In this document: positions 9,207-18,688 of the stretch, in pieces | Position numbering within the stretch: the first letter of the stretch is position 1 | Layout of the letters: every line of letters starts with the position of its first letter | From: Nanobdellati archaeon | Lineage (GTDB): Archaea > B1Sed10-29 > JAGVWA01 | Direction of reading: 5' to 3' | Assembly (NCBI GenBank): GCA_018304505.1 | Contig: JAGVWA010000018.1 | Span: 1-53,203, forward strand | DNA length: 53,203 bases | Made by a program: the position numbers and the translations under genes | The notes under the pieces: model-generated | What the model was told of the DNA's origin: nothing | The model's input: only the letters and a program-made list of their open reading frames with translations | Database searches by the model: none

Positions 9207-9260
9207 ATGAGTTGCATGATTAACCAACGCACATGTTGCTGTTGTACCCAAACGAGGTAA
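9207..9260 (+). CDS. Putative Cys-codon leader peptide before tRNA-Cys/cysS
   Basis: The ORF encodes MSCMINQRTCCCCTQTR: 17 residues with five cysteines, four of them consecutive (TGT TGC TGT TGT at 9234-9245), then TAA. The alternative start at 9216 gives a leaderless 14-mer that keeps the four-Cys run. AGGGG lies 4 bases before the first ATG. The ORF directly precedes tRNA-Cys, a GNAT gene and cysS. A run of codons for the amino acid charged by the downstream synthetase is the hallmark of ribosome-sensing leader peptides in bacterial attenuators. The codon run is seen directly; translation and regulation are inferred. Confidence 0.6.
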   Translation: MSCMINQRTCCCCTQTR

Positions 9261-9306: not shown

Positions 9307-9322
9307 TGAAAACTTTGAAAAT

Positions 9323-9469
9323 GCAGGGATGGCAGAGTCTGCGTTGAACTCGTTCAACGAGCTTTCAGCGCGGCTGCAATGGCCATGCACCCGGCTGCAG
9401 TTCAGTTCTCTGTAAACTGGAGGACGGGACAGGAACCGGGAGACACGGATTCGATTTCCGTTCCCTGCT
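9323..9469 (+). tRNA. tRNA-Cys (GCA) with two introns, one in the D-loop
   Basis: Acceptor GCAGGGA (9323-9329) pairs with TCCCTGC (9462-9468), and the discriminator is T, as expected for tRNA-Cys. The T-arm is ACGGA-TTCGATT-TCCGT. The anticodon stem is CCCGG (9390-9394) with CCGGG (9436-9440) and the anticodon GCA is at 9397-9399. The canonical 37/38 intron is 9401-9434. Its splice motif has bulges AGT and GAA and a central helix CTGC/ACAG with one C-A mismatch. The D-loop intron is 9338-9379: central helix GCAG/CTGC, bulges AGT and AAT, inner stem CTGCG/CGCGG. Removing both leaves 71 nt with a normal D-loop (AGTGGCCA). Confidence 0.88.
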
Positions 9470-11490: not shown

Positions 11491-14397
11491 TTAAACCTTC
11501 GCAGCTACAACAGTAATACTTGCTTCAGCGATCTTTGCCTTTGTCTCTTCGCCGGCTAGCGATTTTTTCTCAACAACATTTATTGAATCAGAGTTTGTGG
11601 TCTTCTGCACTTCATCCAACGCCACCGAGTTCTTGAAATCGCGAGGCGCGATCACTTCGACCTTGATGTGGTCAGGCTCTTGCAAGCCGAGTTGTTTCCT
11701 CAGTTGCTGCACTGTCCGAATTAAATCGCGCGTAGCACCTTCTTTCCTCAACTCGTCATTGAGTTGCTTGTTCAAGTAGACCGTTCCTGACCCGAATTGC
11801 GCTTCTGCATAGTCCCCCTTTGGCGCTTCTTTTGCATGTTTTATTTCGTGAACATTCAGTTGCTCTTTCATTATGTGCTCAACGCCAGCCAGAGGAACTG
11901 GCGAATCGCTAACTATAACAAGGTCTTGCAATGGCTGCCTGACTTTCATTCCAATCTCGTTCCGCAATGCTAGCGCTGATTCCATTATCTGTTTCATCCT
12001 TATGAATTGCTCTTCGAGTTTCTCGTCGTGCATTTCATCATTCGCTTCTGGGAATGTTTCCAAGTGCACTGACTCGTTGCCAGTCAGGTTTGTGTAGATT
12101 TCGTCAGACGCAAACGGCATTATTATTGATGAAATAATCGAAGTTTCCCTGAGGAGCTTGTTCAGCACATCAAATACGGCTTCATTGTTGCGGTTTTCCT
12201 TTACGCGCGAGCGTATGTATTTTACGTAGTCTCTTGACAAGTCATTCACGATGAACTCATGCAAGGCCCTTGCAGGTATAGACGTGTTAAGCTCTTTTTC
12301 GTAGCCCTGCACTGTATCGATTTTCAGCTTCTGGAGCCTTGAGAGTATCCACTTATCCTCGATTTCAAGCTTTTCTGGCAGTGGCTCTTTTGGCGTATAT
12401 CCATTCAGCAGCATGAATTTGACTGCGTAATTGTAGACGTTCCAGTAGGTGTTCATGGCGTTTTGTATTATCCTAATGTTGTCTTCGTCCCACTGCACGT
12501 TATCCCATGGCGTTGATGCCCACAGCAAGAACCACCTCACAATGTCAGGCCCGAATTTCTCAATAACGTCAAATGGCGCAACAACATTGCCCCTGCTCTT
12601 GCTCATTTTTTCGCCCTTCGCGTCCAGCACCAGGCCATTGACAAGGACCGAGTTAAACGGTGCCTCGTTGAAAACAATTGTGGATTCAACCAGCATAAGG
12701 TAGAACCAGCCCCTTGTTTGGTCTAGCCCTTCGGTTATAAAATCAACGGGAAACCATTTCTTGAATTCTTCATTTCTTGGATAACCAAATGGCGCCCAAG
12801 TGTCAGCACCAGCGTCGAACCAAACGTCGGTAACGTCCGTAGTGCGATGTGATTCCTTGCCACAGTTTTCACACTTTATGGTTACCTCATCAATATACGG
12901 CCTGTGCAGGTCCATACCCGCCTTGTAATTTGTGGCCTTTTCTCGTAGCTCTTTCACACTACCAATGACAGTGAGTTTGTCACAATCTGAGCATTCCCAT
13001 ACCGGAATCGGTATGCCCCAATACCTCTGCCTGGAGATGTTCCAGTCCCGGGCATTGGAAAGCCAATCATGGAATCGCTTCTGGCCGGCCCAGTCTGGTA
13101 CCCACCTTATTTTCGAGTTCAGGTCGAGCATTCGCTGCTTGATCGGCTCAATTTTGATGAACCACTGCGGCGTCGTTATGTAAATCAGTTTAGTTCTGCA
13201 CCGCCAACAGTGAGGATAGCTATGCGTAATTTTCTCGGTAAACAAGAGTGAGCCTTGATGGTCCAGCATTTCATTTATCTCGTTGTTGACCTTCAATACA
13301 TTTTTTCCCTTTAGTTCGGGGCCCGCTTCTTCATTATACTTTCCAGCCCGGTCAACGGGAGACAGTATTCTCAGATTGTATTTTAGTCCCGAGTTGTAAT
13401 CGTCTGGCCCATGCCCTGGGGCTGTGTGGACAACGCCTGTGCCGTCTCCAGTTGTGACATATTCTTCTGTAATTGTTTTGTGCACGAATTCCTTGTGCAC
13501 AGGCACCTGGTTTTCTAATGGATGTACATACGTCAGGTTCGTCAAGTCCGCTCCCTGCATCTCCTCAAGAACTTCGTAGACATCATGGCCGAGTTTTTTC
13601 ATCACGCTTTCAACTAAGTCCTTGGCGAGTATGTATACATCATCTTGGACTTTGACCCTGGCATAGGTAAAAGTTGGATGCACTGCCACGGCAACGTTGC
13701 TCGGTATTGTCCACGGGGTTGTTGTCCAAACCAAGAAGTACTCATTGTCCTTGTCGTTTATCTTGAACCTAAGGTATATCGAGGTATCGGTAACGTCCTC
13801 ATATCCCTGGCTGACTTCATGCTGCGCTAAACCGGTTTGGTGGTGCGGGCACCATGGCGTAGAGCCCTGGCCCTTGTACAATAAGTCTTGAGCATGCGCT
13901 TTTTCAAAAAAGAGCCACGTTGAGTCAATGTAATCATTTTCAAATGTTATGTATTTGTTGTCTAAGTTCCACAAGCTCGATGAGCCGAACTTTTCATAGA
14001 ATTCACCCCATAAATCCAGGTACTTTAGCGCGTGTTCCCGGCACGCCTTGTTGAACTTTTCAATGCCGAATTTCTCAATGTCAGAGCTGTCGAGTTTCAG
14101 TTCGTTTTGCACCATTGTCTCGACTGGCAGGCCGTGGGTGTCAAATCCAGGCTGGAGCCACACATTCTCCCCCTTAAGCAATCTGTATTTGCAGATGGTT
14201 TCGCGCAGGGTCCTGGTAAGGGCATGCCCCATGTGCGGCGGCGCGTTGGCATATGGCGGCCCATCGAGGTAGAAAAACTTTTTCCCCATTGCGTTTTTTT
14301 TCTTGCGCTTTTCAAGTAACTTGATGTCGCGCCATCGCTTGATGAACTTTTCCTGCAATTCAGTTGCGTTGTATTGTCCAACAGATTCCATTGTCAT
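11491..14397 (-). CDS. ileS: Isoleucyl-tRNA synthetase
   Basis: A class I synthetase of 968 residues. It shows 'YLDGPPYANAPPHMGHAL' with HMGH as the HIGH motif, the CP1 editing domain with 'VWTTTPWTIPSNVAVAVHP', 'NISRQRYWGIPIPVWECSDC', and 'KMSKSRGNVVAPFDVIEKFG' as the KMSKS loop. A long C-terminal anticodon-binding region follows. It starts 12 bases after the valS stop on the same strand, so the two synthetases for the branched amino acids Val and Ile form an operon. A leader ORF rich in Val and Ile codons lies upstream of valS. Confidence 0.97.
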   Translation of the reverse strand: MTMESVGQYNATELQEKFIKRWRDIKLLEKRKKKNAMGKKFFYLDGPPYANAPPHMGHALTRTLRETICKYRLLKGENVWLQPGFDTHGLPVETMVQNELKLDSSDIEKFGIEKFNKACREHALKYLDLWGEFYEKFGSSSLWNLDNKYITFENDYIDSTWLFFEKAHAQDLLYKGQGSTPWCPHHQTGLAQHEVSQGYEDVTDTSIYLRFKINDKDNEYFLVWTTTPWTIPSNVAVAVHPTFTYARVKVQDDVYILAKDLVESVMKKLGHDVYEVLEEMQGADLTNLTYVHPLENQVPVHKEFVHKTITEEYVTTGDGTGVVHTAPGHGPDDYNSGLKYNLRILSPVDRAGKYNEEAGPELKGKNVLKVNNEINEMLDHQGSLLFTEKITHSYPHCWRCRTKLIYITTPQWFIKIEPIKQRMLDLNSKIRWVPDWAGQKRFHDWLSNARDWNISRQRYWGIPIPVWECSDCDKLTVIGSVKELREKATNYKAGMDLHRPYIDEVTIKCENCGKESHRTTDVTDVWFDAGADTWAPFGYPRNEEFKKWFPVDFITEGLDQTRGWFYLMLVESTIVFNEAPFNSVLVNGLVLDAKGEKMSKSRGNVVAPFDVIEKFGPDIVRWFLLWASTPWDNVQWDEDNIRIIQNAMNTYWNVYNYAVKFMLLNGYTPKEPLPEKLEIEDKWILSRLQKLKIDTVQGYEKELNTSIPARALHEFIVNDLSRDYVKYIRSRVKENRNNEAVFDVLNKLLRETSIISSIIMPFASDEIYTNLTGNESVHLETFPEANDEMHDEKLEEQFIRMKQIMESALALRNEIGMKVRQPLQDLVIVSDSPVPLAGVEHIMKEQLNVHEIKHAKEAPKGDYAEAQFGSGTVYLNKQLNDELRKEGATRDLIRTVQQLRKQLGLQEPDHIKVEVIAPRDFKNSVALDEVQKTTNSDSINVVEKKSLAGEETKAKIAEASITVVAAKV

Positions 14398-14409
14398 CTT
14401 CCGATATCA

Positions 14410-16722
14410 TTATTTTATGTTGTGCATTATTACTAAGTCATCTTTGAACAGTTCTAACTCTTCAGGTATTTTAATGCCCGTGATTTCTGCTTTTAATGAA
14501 ATGCCTTTTTCTTTTTTTGTTTTCCAAATCATTGAGTTGAAGTCCATCAATGCTTGCGTTTTTTCGCTTAGAATTTGTGGCGTTTTCGCATCGTATTCTG
14601 GAAACGTCTCGTTGTGTATCAATCCGCTGTACAGCTCATTGTAAACCTTGTGCGTAACAAACGGTGTTATCGGCGCTAGTAGTTTAAGGACGCCCTGTAA
14701 AACGTAATGCAGCGTGTACAATGCCGAAGCGTCGTTGTCATAAGCCCTGTTCTTGACCATTTCAACATAGTGACTCGCAAACTGGTTCATGACAAACTCC
14801 CTGACGCGGTTTGCCGGAACGAAGAAATTATAATCTTGGTAGCCTTTTAGCGATTCCTTAACAAGGTTGTTGAACTCCTCCAGGATCCACTTGTCTGTGC
14901 CCGTTAGTTCTTTTGGTTTCTCAGCCTGGGCGAACATGGAAATCAGTTTTGAGAGGTTCCAGAGTTTTGTAATGAACTTTGCCGCTCCGTTAATGCGGTC
15001 TTCAGAAATCCTGAAGAACTCCCCAACATTGGATTCGCTGGCGGCCCATAATCGCCATGCATCGGCCCCGTATTTTTCTAGTATTGGGTTTATTTCCAGG
15101 TAGTTGCCTGCCGACTTCGACATTTTCTTTCCATCTTCTGCCAAGCCGAGGCCGTCGATCCACACCTTTTTGAAAGGCGCTTCATTCAATAGCTGCAAGT
15201 TGCGGAGGATCGTATAGTACAACCAGGTTCTGACGATTTCTGGACCCTGCGGTCGAATCGAAACAGGAAATGCTTTTTTGAACAACTCATCGTCGCGCGA
15301 AAACCCGGAGATGTAAAGGCTGGACAAGGATGAGTCAACCCACGTATCAAATACTTTATCTTCGCCAATAAACTCTGTGCAGCCGCATTCTGTGCATTTC
15401 GTAAACGGTGCCTTGTCCTTCCACGGCCTATAGTACGGGCCTGGCTCTGGCAGCATAGGGTGATGATTGTCCTTGCAGTACCACAACGGAATCTCAGTGT
15501 GATAGTACCTGCGTCGTGATATCGGCCAGTCGATTGTTATCGAGTTTATCCAGTCAGTAAGTATCTGCTTGTTTTTCGCTGGCAGGAACGTCATCGCGTC
15601 TGCCTTTTTCCTAACGTCATCTAGAAATTCGAGTTGTTTGATGTACCATTCCTTCATGCTGACGAATTCTAGAGGGTCTTTTGAGCGCTCGCACGTCGGA
15701 GTCCTGTGCGTCATGTCTTCTTGTTTCACGAGCAGGTCTTCATGCTTAAGCTTTTCAATAATTGTCTTGCGCGCCTCTTTCACAGTAAGACCTTTCAGAA
15801 ATCCAGTGGCTTGTGTCATTAGACCGTCTTCGCCAATGCCTTGCACTGGCTCCAAGCTCAATTCTCTGAAGATCTGCACATCGCTTGTGTCGCCGTAGCT
15901 GCATATCATTACGATTCCAGTGCCGAATTCAGGCTTGGCGTAAGTGTGTGCATAAATTGGAACTTCAGTTCCATACAATGGAACGATTGCATGTTTTCCG
16001 TGTAAGTATTTGTAGCGCTCGTCGTCTGGATGGACTAGGATTGCTTTACACGCCACCAATAGTTCTGGCCGTGTAGTACCAATTTCGATTTCGTCATTGG
16101 TTTCCGTTACCTTGAATTTTATAGTATTCATTTTGCTTGGCAATTCTTCGTAAACAATTTCGGCTTCCGCTATCGTTGTCCTGCAGCCGGGGCAGTAGAA
16201 GTTTGGCCGTAGGTGTTCGACAATTTGCCCCCTGTGCCACATTTCAATGAACATGGCTTGAGAGAAAGCCCTGTAGTCGTCACTGTCTGTGGCGTACGCG
16301 TTTTTGAAGTCAAAACTCATTCCGGAGCGCTTGAAAATATCAATGATACTTGTACCGATTTTGTTCATCTCGATAACGCATTCTTTGACGAAGAATTCCC
16401 TGTCCATGTCATGGATGCTCTTCTTGTGCTTTTTTTCAACTAAGAGTTCTAGGTTTATGCCGTTCCTGTCGAGGCCAATTGGAAAGAGAACATTGTAGCC
16501 TTGCATCCTTGCGGTGCGTCCGATCATGTCGATCTTGCAGTAGTGCGCCAGCTGTCCAGGATGGGGATCTCCAGAAGGATACGGCGGGGGATTGTCTATT
16601 GAAAACGTTTCCTTGTCCGAGTTCCTGTCGAACGAGAAATCGTAGTCAATATCGAATTCTGTTATGAGTTCTTTTTCGTTTTCGCTCGTGAATCTCTTTT
16701 CAGTCAGTTTCGCTTCAGCCAA
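14410..16722 (-). CDS. valS: Valyl-tRNA synthetase, archaeal type
   Basis: The 770-residue class I enzyme shows 'IDNPPPYPSGDPHPGQLAHY', where the HIGH motif reads HPGQ (H54, G56, Q57). Next come 'DRNGINLELLVEKK', the editing-domain 'GTTRPELLVACKAILVHPDD', the zinc-like cysteines around residues 400-440, and 'DGKKMSKSAGNYLE'. No C-terminal tRNA-binding coiled coil is present. The start must be TTG: an in-frame TGA directly precedes it, no other start lies before the HIGH motif, and GGTGA lies 5 bases upstream. It heads the valS-ileS operon behind a Val/Ile leader ORF. Confidence 0.94.
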   Translation of the reverse strand: MAEAKLTEKRFTSENEKELITEFDIDYDFSFDRNSDKETFSIDNPPPYPSGDPHPGQLAHYCKIDMIGRTARMQGYNVLFPIGLDRNGINLELLVEKKHKKSIHDMDREFFVKECVIEMNKIGTSIIDIFKRSGMSFDFKNAYATDSDDYRAFSQAMFIEMWHRGQIVEHLRPNFYCPGCRTTIAEAEIVYEELPSKMNTIKFKVTETNDEIEIGTTRPELLVACKAILVHPDDERYKYLHGKHAIVPLYGTEVPIYAHTYAKPEFGTGIVMICSYGDTSDVQIFRELSLEPVQGIGEDGLMTQATGFLKGLTVKEARKTIIEKLKHEDLLVKQEDMTHRTPTCERSKDPLEFVSMKEWYIKQLEFLDDVRKKADAMTFLPAKNKQILTDWINSITIDWPISRRRYYHTEIPLWYCKDNHHPMLPEPGPYYRPWKDKAPFTKCTECGCTEFIGEDKVFDTWVDSSLSSLYISGFSRDDELFKKAFPVSIRPQGPEIVRTWLYYTILRNLQLLNEAPFKKVWIDGLGLAEDGKKMSKSAGNYLEINPILEKYGADAWRLWAASESNVGEFFRISEDRINGAAKFITKLWNLSKLISMFAQAEKPKELTGTDKWILEEFNNLVKESLKGYQDYNFFVPANRVREFVMNQFASHYVEMVKNRAYDNDASALYTLHYVLQGVLKLLAPITPFVTHKVYNELYSGLIHNETFPEYDAKTPQILSEKTQALMDFNSMIWKTKKEKGISLKAEITGIKIPEELELFKDDLVIMHNIK

Positions 16723-16746
16723 TCAATTCACCATAACTCGTTTTAA

Positions 16747-16793
16747 TAGCAACTCCAAAATGTTTGTTAGAGTAGCTATTTAGAAATAACTAC
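16747..16793 (-). promoter_or_regulatory. Two mutually exclusive hairpins between the Val/Ile leader and valS
   Basis: On the minus strand, hairpin 1 (16772-16793) pairs GTAGTTATTT with AAATAGCTAC. Its 5' arm holds the last Val, Val and Ile codons of the leader ORF. Hairpin 2 pairs TAGCTACTC (16770-16778) with GAGTTGCTA (16747-16755), with one T-T mismatch. Both use the TAGCTAC segment, so they cannot coexist. A ribosome stalled on the Val/Ile codons would block hairpin 1 and favour hairpin 2. No U-tract follows, so a classic intrinsic terminator is not shown. Hairpin 2 ends about 20-25 bases before valS. Confidence 0.5.
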
Positions 16794-16856
16794 TACGGGT
16801 TGAGGTAAAGAAATTATTTCTATTATAACTTTTGTAAGGTAGTACATGAGTCTCAT
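16776..16856 (-). CDS. Putative Val/Ile-codon leader peptide before valS-ileS
   Basis: A 26-residue ORF starts MRLMYYLTKVIIEIIS and ends in LPQPVVVISK before TAG. Nine residues are Val or Ile, including GTA GTA GTT ATT just before the stop. It is the only ORF found between its TATA box and valS, whose start lies 54 bases after the TAG. The composition matches the two amino acids charged by the operon behind it, and its 3' end overlaps two competing hairpins. This is the layout of a leader-peptide attenuator. Translation has not been shown; a hydrophobic micro-protein is the alternative. Confidence 0.6.
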   Translation of the reverse strand: MRLMYYLTKVIIEIISLPQPVVVISK

Positions 16857-16883
16857 TTTGCCCAGATAAATTAGCAGGGATTT

Positions 16884-16895
16884 GGTATATATTAA
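16884..16895 (-). promoter_or_regulatory. TATA box of the Val/Ile leader-valS-ileS operon
   Basis: The minus strand reads TTAATATATACC, and the leader ORF ATG follows about 35 bases later. It predicts a transcript starting just before the leader ORF and about 135-140 bases before valS. Confidence 0.55.
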
Positions 16896-17111
16896 TTGTT
16901 GCTCTCTTCCTGCATACTCACGGGTTTTGTTTCAAAAATGTCTTAGTTTGCTTTAGGAATTCCTTTAGCGTGAATTCTGTTAGTTTCGATCAAGGATTCG
17001 AAGTAAGGCTCTCTCTAGTGATATGTTAAGCAGCGGAAATTCATTATAGTCAAAACGTTAATCGAATCCATCAGCTAGGCATAAATTTAAGATGGTTTTT
17101 AAAACTATGCT
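16896..17111. other. Intergenic stretch without a recognised feature
   Basis: This is AT-rich sequence between the valS promoter and the repeats behind proS. Both strands were read for tRNA arms, long ORFs and long hairpins, and none was convincing. Only very short ORFs of under 12 codons occur. It may include a proS terminator. Confidence 0.4.
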
Positions 17112-17180
17112 TTAGTAATGCACAAAAGCTTGCATTAGTAATGCACAAAAGCTTGCATTAGTAATGCATGAAAATATGTA
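17112..17180. repeat. 23-bp tandem repeat, three units
   Basis: The unit TTAGTAATGCACAAAAGCTT+GCA occurs perfectly at 17112-17134 and 17135-17157, and degenerate at 17158-17180. Each unit contains TGCA at both ends of an AAGCTT core. It starts just past the 3' end of proS and lies well upstream of the valS promoter. On the minus strand each perfect unit reads as an 8-codon mini-ORF whose stop overlaps the next ATG, probably by chance. Confidence 0.8.
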
Positions 17181-17206
17181 TTGCCCCTGCACAATTTAAA
17201 ATAAGG

Positions 17207-18688
17207 TTAGTATGCCTTGGCAACGTACATGACGTGCTTGGCTTCTTTGCCACAACCAATACATTTCGCGCCATTGGCAACTCTTTCTTCTTTGCCAAAC
17301 TCGATAAACTTAGTGCCTCGAACTTCGGCATGGTATGCTTCGCCGATCTTGTCCGCGCATTTCAATCCATCCTTCTCGCGCGAGCAGAAATTCACCTTGA
17401 CGAAACCGCCTTTCTCTAGCTGCTTTCCGAGCTCTTCAAAATCCGTGGCCTCGTGAGTGTTTCCTTCAAACCATTTCATGGTTTGATCCTTTAGTGTTTT
17501 CAGAATCTCAGGAACTGCTTTTTCAATGTACGTTTCCAAGTCTTTTTGCTTGATTGTTTCCTTTTTTCCATTGTCCCTGCGCGCAATCGTTAATTCATGC
17601 TTTTCAAGTTCCTTGCTGCCGATTTCAATCCTCAGTGGAGTGCCCCGCGCTTCCCAGTAGTAGTACTTAGAACCTGGGCGCTTGTCACTGTCGTCGACCT
17701 CTGTTCGGTAATCAAGTTCCCTGAGTTGCGTTTGCAAGTCATAACACTCCTGAAGTAGGGTGGTGCTATCTGCGTCGGCCTTTAAAATTGGAACGATAAC
17801 GACTTGTGTAGGCGCAAGTCCAAATGGCAGCCTTAGGCCCTTGTTGTCTCCATGCACTGAAATCAGGGCTGCATAGATTCTGGAAATGGCTGGCCCGAAC
17901 GTGGTCTGGAACGCATATTTCTCCTTCTCGTTCTCATCAAGAAATTTTATGTTGTATGACTTCGCGAAGTTCTGCCCGTAGAAATGTGTGCTCGGTAACT
18001 GTAAAACTTTCTTGTCTGGCATCAACGCGTCAGCAGCGAAACTGTGTTGCCCGCCTGCGAACTTATCCCAGTCAGGCCGGTGAAAGAAAATAATCGGCAA
18101 CCCCCATTTATCACGCAATACATCGTAAGTCATTTCCATGTCTTCCTTAACCTGGTTCCAGGCTTCTTCTGCGGTGGCGAAAACGTCATGCGCTTCTATC
18201 CAGTGAAATTCCCTGTCACGTAAGAAAGGTCGCGTGTGCTTTGTTTCATACCTCCAAACTTGGCAAGACTGATAAATCTTCAACGGCAGGTCCCTGTGGC
18301 TGCGTATCCATTGCGAGTACGTGTCGTACATCGCGGTTTCAGATGTTGGCCGCATTGCCAGCTTTTCTTCAAACTCGTCATCCGTGCCACCTTTTGTCAC
18401 CCAAAACACGTTTGGGGCAAAGTTCTCGATGTGCTCTGCTTCCTTGGCAAAGTAGTGCTCTGGAATCAATGAAGGAAAACGCGCTGGCTTGTGGCCATGA
18501 GTTTCCAGCGAGGATTCCATGTCTGCATACATTCGCTTTTCTGTAATTGCGGCATTTGGCATGTGGACTATGAAGCCCTTCAAGCGGTACCTTTGGTCTG
18601 CCAGCTCGGCGTAACTGACGATTTCAGTAAACCATTCTGAGAAATTCTTTTCCTTATCGATGTTAAATCCCTTGTCTTCCTCTGCCAT
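17207..18688 (-). CDS. proS: Prolyl-tRNA synthetase, archaeal/eukaryal type
   Basis: This class II synthetase has 493 residues. 'RPTSETAMYDTYSQWIRSHRDLPLKIYQSCQVWRYE' covers motif 2 and the substrate loop, and 'FLRDREFHWIEAHDVFAT' follows. The C-terminal zinc domain has four cysteines (CSREKDGLKC and CIGC) and the protein ends in the conserved Tyr. A TATA box lies about 30 bases before the ATG, so the mRNA is leaderless. Unlike the Cys and Val/Ile operons there is no room for a leader ORF. It lies upstream of valS-ileS on the same strand. Confidence 0.96.
   Translation of the reverse strand: MAEEDKGFNIDKEKNFSEWFTEIVSYAELADQRYRLKGFIVHMPNAAITEKRMYADMESSLETHGHKPARFPSLIPEHYFAKEAEHIENFAPNVFWVTKGGTDDEFEEKLAMRPTSETAMYDTYSQWIRSHRDLPLKIYQSCQVWRYETKHTRPFLRDREFHWIEAHDVFATAEEAWNQVKEDMEMTYDVLRDKWGLPIIFFHRPDWDKFAGGQHSFAADALMPDKKVLQLPSTHFYGQNFAKSYNIKFLDENEKEKYAFQTTFGPAISRIYAALISVHGDNKGLRLPFGLAPTQVVIVPILKADADSTTLLQECYDLQTQLRELDYRTEVDDSDKRPGSKYYYWEARGTPLRIEIGSKELEKHELTIARRDNGKKETIKQKDLETYIEKAVPEILKTLKDQTMKWFEGNTHEATDFEELGKQLEKGGFVKVNFCSREKDGLKCADKIGEAYHAEVRGTKFIEFGKEERVANGAKCIGCGKEAKHVMYVAKAY

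Follow-up and report, generated by a model that had tools for sequence, protein, structure and literature searches.

A 26-codon ORF upstream of the valS-ileS operon of a Nanobdellati archaeon (B1Sed10-29; JAGVWA01) is probably a leader-peptide gene, and together the two would sense the charging of Val-tRNA and Ile-tRNA through the ribosome, acting by translational attenuation. Judging from the sequence comparisons, we put the probability of this reading at about 0.6. By computation we showed the ORF itself, the bias of its codons across several diverged genomes, its place behind a TATA-like box and a hairpin kept at its stop codon. The window is the whole stretch of DNA that was analysed, 53,203 nt of contig JAGVWA010000018.1, and its features around the leader are collected in Table 1.

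The leader ORF and the valS-ileS locus

Table 1. Features of the valS-ileS leader region, in coordinates of the window
Feature	Position	Strand	Basis or remark
Leader ORF, 26 sense codons + TAG	16776..16856	-	Sequence; Ile/Val enrichment; counterparts in relatives
TATA-like box, TTAATATATA	16886..16895	-	30-39 nt before the leader ATG
valS, valyl-tRNA synthetase, TTG start	14410..16722	-	NCBIfam valine--tRNA ligase, 873 bits against a cutoff of 738
ileS, isoleucyl-tRNA synthetase	11491..14397	-	883 bits against a cutoff of 621
Putative valS Shine-Dalgarno sequence, GGUGA	16728..16732	-	Sequence
Strongest local hairpin of the leader region, segments 3:4, -12.5 kcal/mol	16745..16780	-	Starts 2 nt before the leader stop
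Second hairpin, inside the ORF, segments 1:2, -8.4 kcal/mol; arms hold the VIIEII and VVVIS codons	16781..16822	-	
Alternative hairpin, segments 2:3, -8.7 kcal/mol, excluding both 1:2 and 3:4	16771..16794	-	Window genome only
UUUACC in leader codons 16-18	16804..16809	-	Predicted pairing with GGUGAA at 16727-16732 (fold)

The original prediction described a minus-strand ORF of 26 codons with nine Val or Ile residues, preceded by a TATA box and followed by valS and ileS. We found each of these elements in place, and NCBIfam models identified the two synthetases. The peptide, MRLMYYLTKVIIEIISLPQPVVVISK, contains four Val and five Ile residues, and their codons lie at positions 10-15 (GTT ATA ATA GAA ATA ATT) and 21-24 (GTA GTA GTT ATT). 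The run PVVVI, which had been taken as the end of the peptide, is present, but the true end is PVVVISK. The position of the TATA-like box implies a 5' UTR of about 10 nt for the leader; many genes in the window have such a box about 28-30 nt before the ATG. The leader lies 53 nt upstream of valS, which is followed on the same strand by ileS after 12 nt, and proS is located on this strand 484 nt upstream. Since the host 16S rRNA contains AUCACCUCC, Shine-Dalgarno sequences of the GGUGA type are plausible.

Two side observations concern the same locus and the host rRNA. In the long proS-valS gap, just after proS, a 23-nt unit with the palindrome TGCATTAGTAATGCA is repeated in tandem to give about three copies (17101-17169). 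The 16S rRNA gene of the host (L190 and L191; G000:C15, 18912-21250) appears to be interrupted, as its 3' part matches about 0.8 kb past the main match. The anti-Shine-Dalgarno end lies further on still, which suggests rRNA introns.

Leaders in related genomes

The host genome (G000; 917 kb, 93% complete) was compared with seven other genomes of its order, among which it is the sole member of its family. Five leader loci from four families were compared, and all genomes are drafts. Orthologous ValRS proteins with 51-56% identity are encoded in five of the other genomes, and a promoter-proximal short ORF precedes valS in four of these five. The leader peptides of G001 (MPYQLVICGIVVIQ), G003 (MAFISIKQITVIVTIS) and G007 (M..KMPSITTKTKIIIPIS; MKMPSITTKTKIIIPIS, or six residues longer) are clearly Ile/Val-rich, so that the Ile/Val codons are kept there while the sequence diverges. 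The short ORF of G002 (MLPMTTKTAGNMIIHRKKVFTPFS) is not enriched in Ile and Val. G005 has no leader ORF before valS; its valS directly follows proS after a gap of just 45 nt, and its ileS is on another contig, away from valS. We counted the absence of the leader from this genome, where the two synthetase genes are not adjacent, in favour of the leader model. The two genes adjoin in G000, G001, G002 and G003, whereas the G007 contig ends inside valS. G006 was left out of scoring because its contig also ends inside valS. The central part of the original prediction, a Val/Ile leader peptide that would control valS-ileS, withstood the refuting conditions set out with it: three diverged relatives have a clearly Ile/Val-rich ORF at the corresponding site and G002 a weak one, with none in G005.

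The arrangement of the locus is similar in the five leader-bearing genomes, with 46-64 nt between the leader stop and valS. Each of them has a TATA-like box at -31 to -44 relative to the leader ATG, and in three no such box lies between the leader and valS. The promoter may lie before the ORF, rather than downstream of it.

The stop-codon hairpin and transcription termination

The strongest local hairpin of the region starts close to the leader stop in every leader-bearing genome, at -2 nt in G000, +3 nt in G001, -4 nt in G003, -8 nt in G002 and +3 nt in G007. The corresponding energies are -12.5, -13.1, -20.5, -8.3 and -13.6 kcal/mol. In shuffled sequences, the best hairpin falls within this range of positions with a probability of 0.06-0.13 per genome and about 4e-6 jointly, the range having been set post hoc. 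Hairpin stability alone, combined over the genomes, gave P=4e-4. The hairpins have a common position and do not share sequences, and in a MAFFT alignment the stretch from leader stop to valS was too diverged for covariation counts.

A rival reading is transcriptional attenuation of the kind found in the bacterial ilv, thr and pheST leaders, where termination by RNA polymerase ahead of valS would depend on whether the ribosome stalls or moves on. The mutually exclusive hairpins 1:2, 2:3 and 3:4 of the window are indeed arranged like a bacterial attenuator, but this set is not seen as such in the relatives. Pairing of the hairpin arms with the ORF was above chance in G001 only, and we rejected it as a common alternative structure. 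The stop-codon hairpin is without a U-tract in all five genomes. Between the leader stop and valS, no U-run of at least 5 occurs in any of them; the longest T run is 4 in the window and shorter than 4 in each of the other genomes. A terminator hairpin with a U-tract of the trp/ilv/pheST type was accordingly not found before valS in the five genomes. Archaeal intrinsic termination depends on U-tracts, and the absence of such a terminator favours translational over transcriptional attenuation, which we consider unlikely. The analogy with bacterial ilv leaders that accompanied the original prediction is therefore incomplete.

A T-box or another known RNA family at the valS leader was rejected for lack of a covariance-model match. 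Rfam models, including the T-box, had no match at the gathering threshold over the window, and a permissive scan of 16700-17220 returned one unrelated weak hit.

Proposed translational control of valS

Pairing between the end of the leader and the valS ribosome-binding site would be one route to translational control. Base pairing of the valS Shine-Dalgarno sequence with the final 12 nt of the leader was above chance in G003 (9 bp, P=0.002), G002 (7 bp, P=0.018) and G007 (7 bp, P=0.009), and this pairing spans around the hairpin. It was not above chance in G000 or G001. In G000, the UUUACC:GGUGAA pairing could possibly sequester the valS ribosome-binding site, although it was not above chance in the window genome. 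Pairing of the whole ORF with the ribosome-binding site was above chance in none of the five genomes; we rejected it as a common mechanism and kept the narrower form with the last 12 nt. We also modelled occlusion by a stalled ribosome, comparing a ribosome on the Ile/Val codons with one at the stop. Occlusion made the valS start region cheaper to open in G001, in G003 and, to a small extent, in G007, and not in G000 or G002; the Ile/Val position favoured opening in G001 and G003, and slightly or not in the other genomes. As these results were mixed across genomes, occlusion folding was dropped as a proof of ON and OFF states. On the whole, we take translational attenuation, with moderate confidence, to be the likeliest mechanism.

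The mechanism that we propose begins with a transcription start about 10-20 nt before the leader, which ribosomes would then translate. When Ile- and Val-tRNAs are charged, the ribosomes would get to the stop codon and leave, and the stop-codon hairpin together with the pairing of leader end and ribosome-binding site would keep valS translation low. If either tRNA is undercharged, ribosomes would stall at the Ile/Val codons near the stop and cover the leader end. The ribosome-binding site of valS would then be freed, and more ValRS and IleRS would be made. We infer from the computed features that the leader is translated, that ribosomes stall on it and sense charging, in which direction the operon responds, and that control acts on translation rather than on transcription.

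The leader could instead act by coupling or reinitiation, feeding ribosomes to valS or, through the stop-codon hairpin, setting termination and restart, with no sensing of amino acids. Such a role would agree with the fixed gap and the hairpin at the stop codon, which all five genomes have, even G002 with no Ile/Val enrichment. It leaves unexplained why Ile and Val exactly are favoured, and before valS only, and we regard it as quite unlikely.

Ile/Val enrichment of the leaders

As background for the enrichment we took 4000 dinucleotide shuffles of the 200-nt stretch preceding valS. The window gave P=0.003, which is suggestive and not compelling alone because the site had been picked by eye from 53 kb. 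The weight of this signal rises with its repetition in independent relatives. The original prediction had proposed a comparison of this kind, and enrichment over shuffles was indeed found in G001 (P=0.0013), G003 (P<0.00025) and G007 (P=0.012), with P=0.61 in G002. The Fisher combined P is 1.6e-7 with the window and 3.7e-6 without it. Four of the five valS regions reached P<0.02, compared with about 1 of 30 other synthetase upstream regions with room in the same genomes; these control genes (Cys, Leu, class II, Trp and Tyr) came from eight genomes of the order. Of 190 residue pairs counted over the pooled leaders, Ile+Val ranks first in enrichment (30 observed, 12.9 expected; P=4.8e-6). Leu, Phe, Met, Ala and Trp together are not enriched (14 observed, 17.7 expected), indicating that the Ile/Val bias is not one of general hydrophobicity.

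Outside the order, the signal was essentially absent from the regions searched. Among 20 valS regions of other archaea with an upstream gap of at least 100 nt, none reached P<0.02 and the best P was 0.028; 47 further archaeal valS regions had too little upstream room and were left out. The genomes related at class level (G008-G018) encode a different ValRS or leave no room for a leader, and none was seen in those inspected. Initial protein-pattern scans for the leader over genome contigs and viral contigs gave no match. The profile scan gave 80 named loci.

These results bear on the reading of the ORF as a chance product of AT-rich intergenic DNA, or as a small hydrophobic protein unrelated to valS control. 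The modest P value at the hand-picked site of the window, the weak case of G002 and the preference of AT-rich DNA for Ile codons would all suit a chance ORF, but the signal is repeated in independent genomes with composition-matched controls. A hydrophobic protein is opposed by the unenriched Leu, Phe and Ala, contrary to what a membrane peptide needs. We find this reading very unlikely in either form.

The residues before the leader stop are VISK, VTIS, IPIS, TPFS and VVIQ. Another reading is arrest by the nascent peptide, in which a conserved ending would stall terminating ribosomes and the signal would be a small molecule, for example free Ile or Val, instead of codon-specific starvation. 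In its favour, four of the five leaders finish in Ile-Ser or Phe-Ser or have such a pair adjacent to the end, and the last codons are similar in DNA (ATTTCTTAR in three leaders). The similarity of the endings could equally come from Shine-Dalgarno pairing, and the peptides differ outside the ending, whereas arrest peptides need a defined sequence. We give this reading a slight chance.

Short ORFs upstream of other synthetase genes

The original prediction regarded the leader as an independent second case of leader-peptide control of synthetases in the same genome, the first presumably being a Cys-rich ORF before cysS. That ORF (MSCMINQRTCCCCTQTR, 9207-9260, plus strand) lies upstream of GNAT-cysS, has a TATA-like box about 24 nt before it and gave P=0.0006 against shuffles. 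It was not found before cysS in the relatives of the order; the idea of a second case is not upheld, and the Cys-rich ORF does not corroborate the valS leader. In G003, a tRNA-Cys(GCA) gene is directly upstream of cysS (L114, 1368-1438). In the window, a gene resembling tRNA-Ser(GGA), with an intron of 63 nt in its anticodon loop (9322-9468, plus strand), was detected by ARAGORN in intron mode at a lowered threshold only and was missed by the default tRNA and Rfam scans.

Short ORFs were also seen before two other synthetase genes of the relatives. In G005 (L170), MFWWYNQSIKQGSKVKNQAKSIKMMNE with two Trp residues ends 12 nt before trpS (P=0.015, in a single genome). The one upstream of leuS in G007 (L136) has 4 Leu among 20 residues and ends 16 nt before leuS (P=0.007); it may be part of a longer unrelated ORF.

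Comparison with known systems

Leader peptides of bacterial amino-acid operons are classic, and the sensing of tRNA charging by a leader is a textbook bacterial mechanism. The pheST operon of E. coli, a synthetase example, has an attenuator (pheM) whose leader peptide holds many cognate residues and acts with a transcription terminator. The valS leader resembles it as a cognate-rich leader ahead of an aminoacyl-tRNA synthetase operon. The pheST system is bacterial and has one amino acid and a terminator, whereas here two amino acids are matched to two synthetases and there is no terminator. T-box riboswitches, which occur at ileS and valS of Firmicutes and Actinobacteria, likewise make the expression of a synthetase depend on tRNA charging. 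They bind the tRNA directly without a leader peptide, and the valS leader had no Rfam match. By its sequence, the valS-ileS leader would thus work like an amino-acid-sensing leader peptide, distinct from a T-box and without the terminator of a transcriptional attenuator.

Bacterial ilv leaders (ilvGMEDA, ilvBN and the corynebacterial ilvBNC uORF; PMC10272879) are alike in having a short ORF with a run of Ile/Val codons after the promoter and hairpins before the first gene. They control biosynthesis and commonly end in a terminator, whereas the present leader precedes an archaeal synthetase operon without one. With the translational attenuators of the ermC/ermCL type (PMC10219788), the proposed common logic is that stalling of a ribosome on the leader uncovers the Shine-Dalgarno sequence of the following gene. 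The inducer of ermC/ermCL is an antibiotic acting on the nascent peptide, whereas uncharged tRNA is the proposed inducer here, and sequestration of the Shine-Dalgarno sequence is supported in three of five genomes only.

In archaea, uORFs have been stated in general terms to act (PMC10219788), and Ribo-seq in Methanosarcina gave sORFs in 5' UTRs without assigned function (PMC11456600). We found no archaeal amino-acid leader peptide in the open-licence full-text literature searched, where absence is not proof.

Biological meaning

The ilvD gene for dihydroxy-acid dehydratase was found in none of the eight genomes of the order, and the same search was positive in 14 of 14 control genomes. This fits a dependence on external Ile and Val, within the limits that draft genomes set to the claim. 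Control at the level of the charging enzymes would make sense under such dependence. The leader suggests a way for organisms without an evident Ile/Val pathway to match the supply of synthetases to scavenged amino acids.

In a broader proposition, to which we give even odds, a small-genome archaeal lineage evolved its own leader-peptide sensor, terminator-free, translational and dual in its amino acids, for two matching synthetases, independently of bacterial attenuators. It would then be the first example from Archaea of amino-acid sensing through a leader peptide. With defined codons, a stop-codon hairpin and a matching two-synthetase operon, archaeal leader-peptide attenuation becomes directly testable in laboratory archaea.
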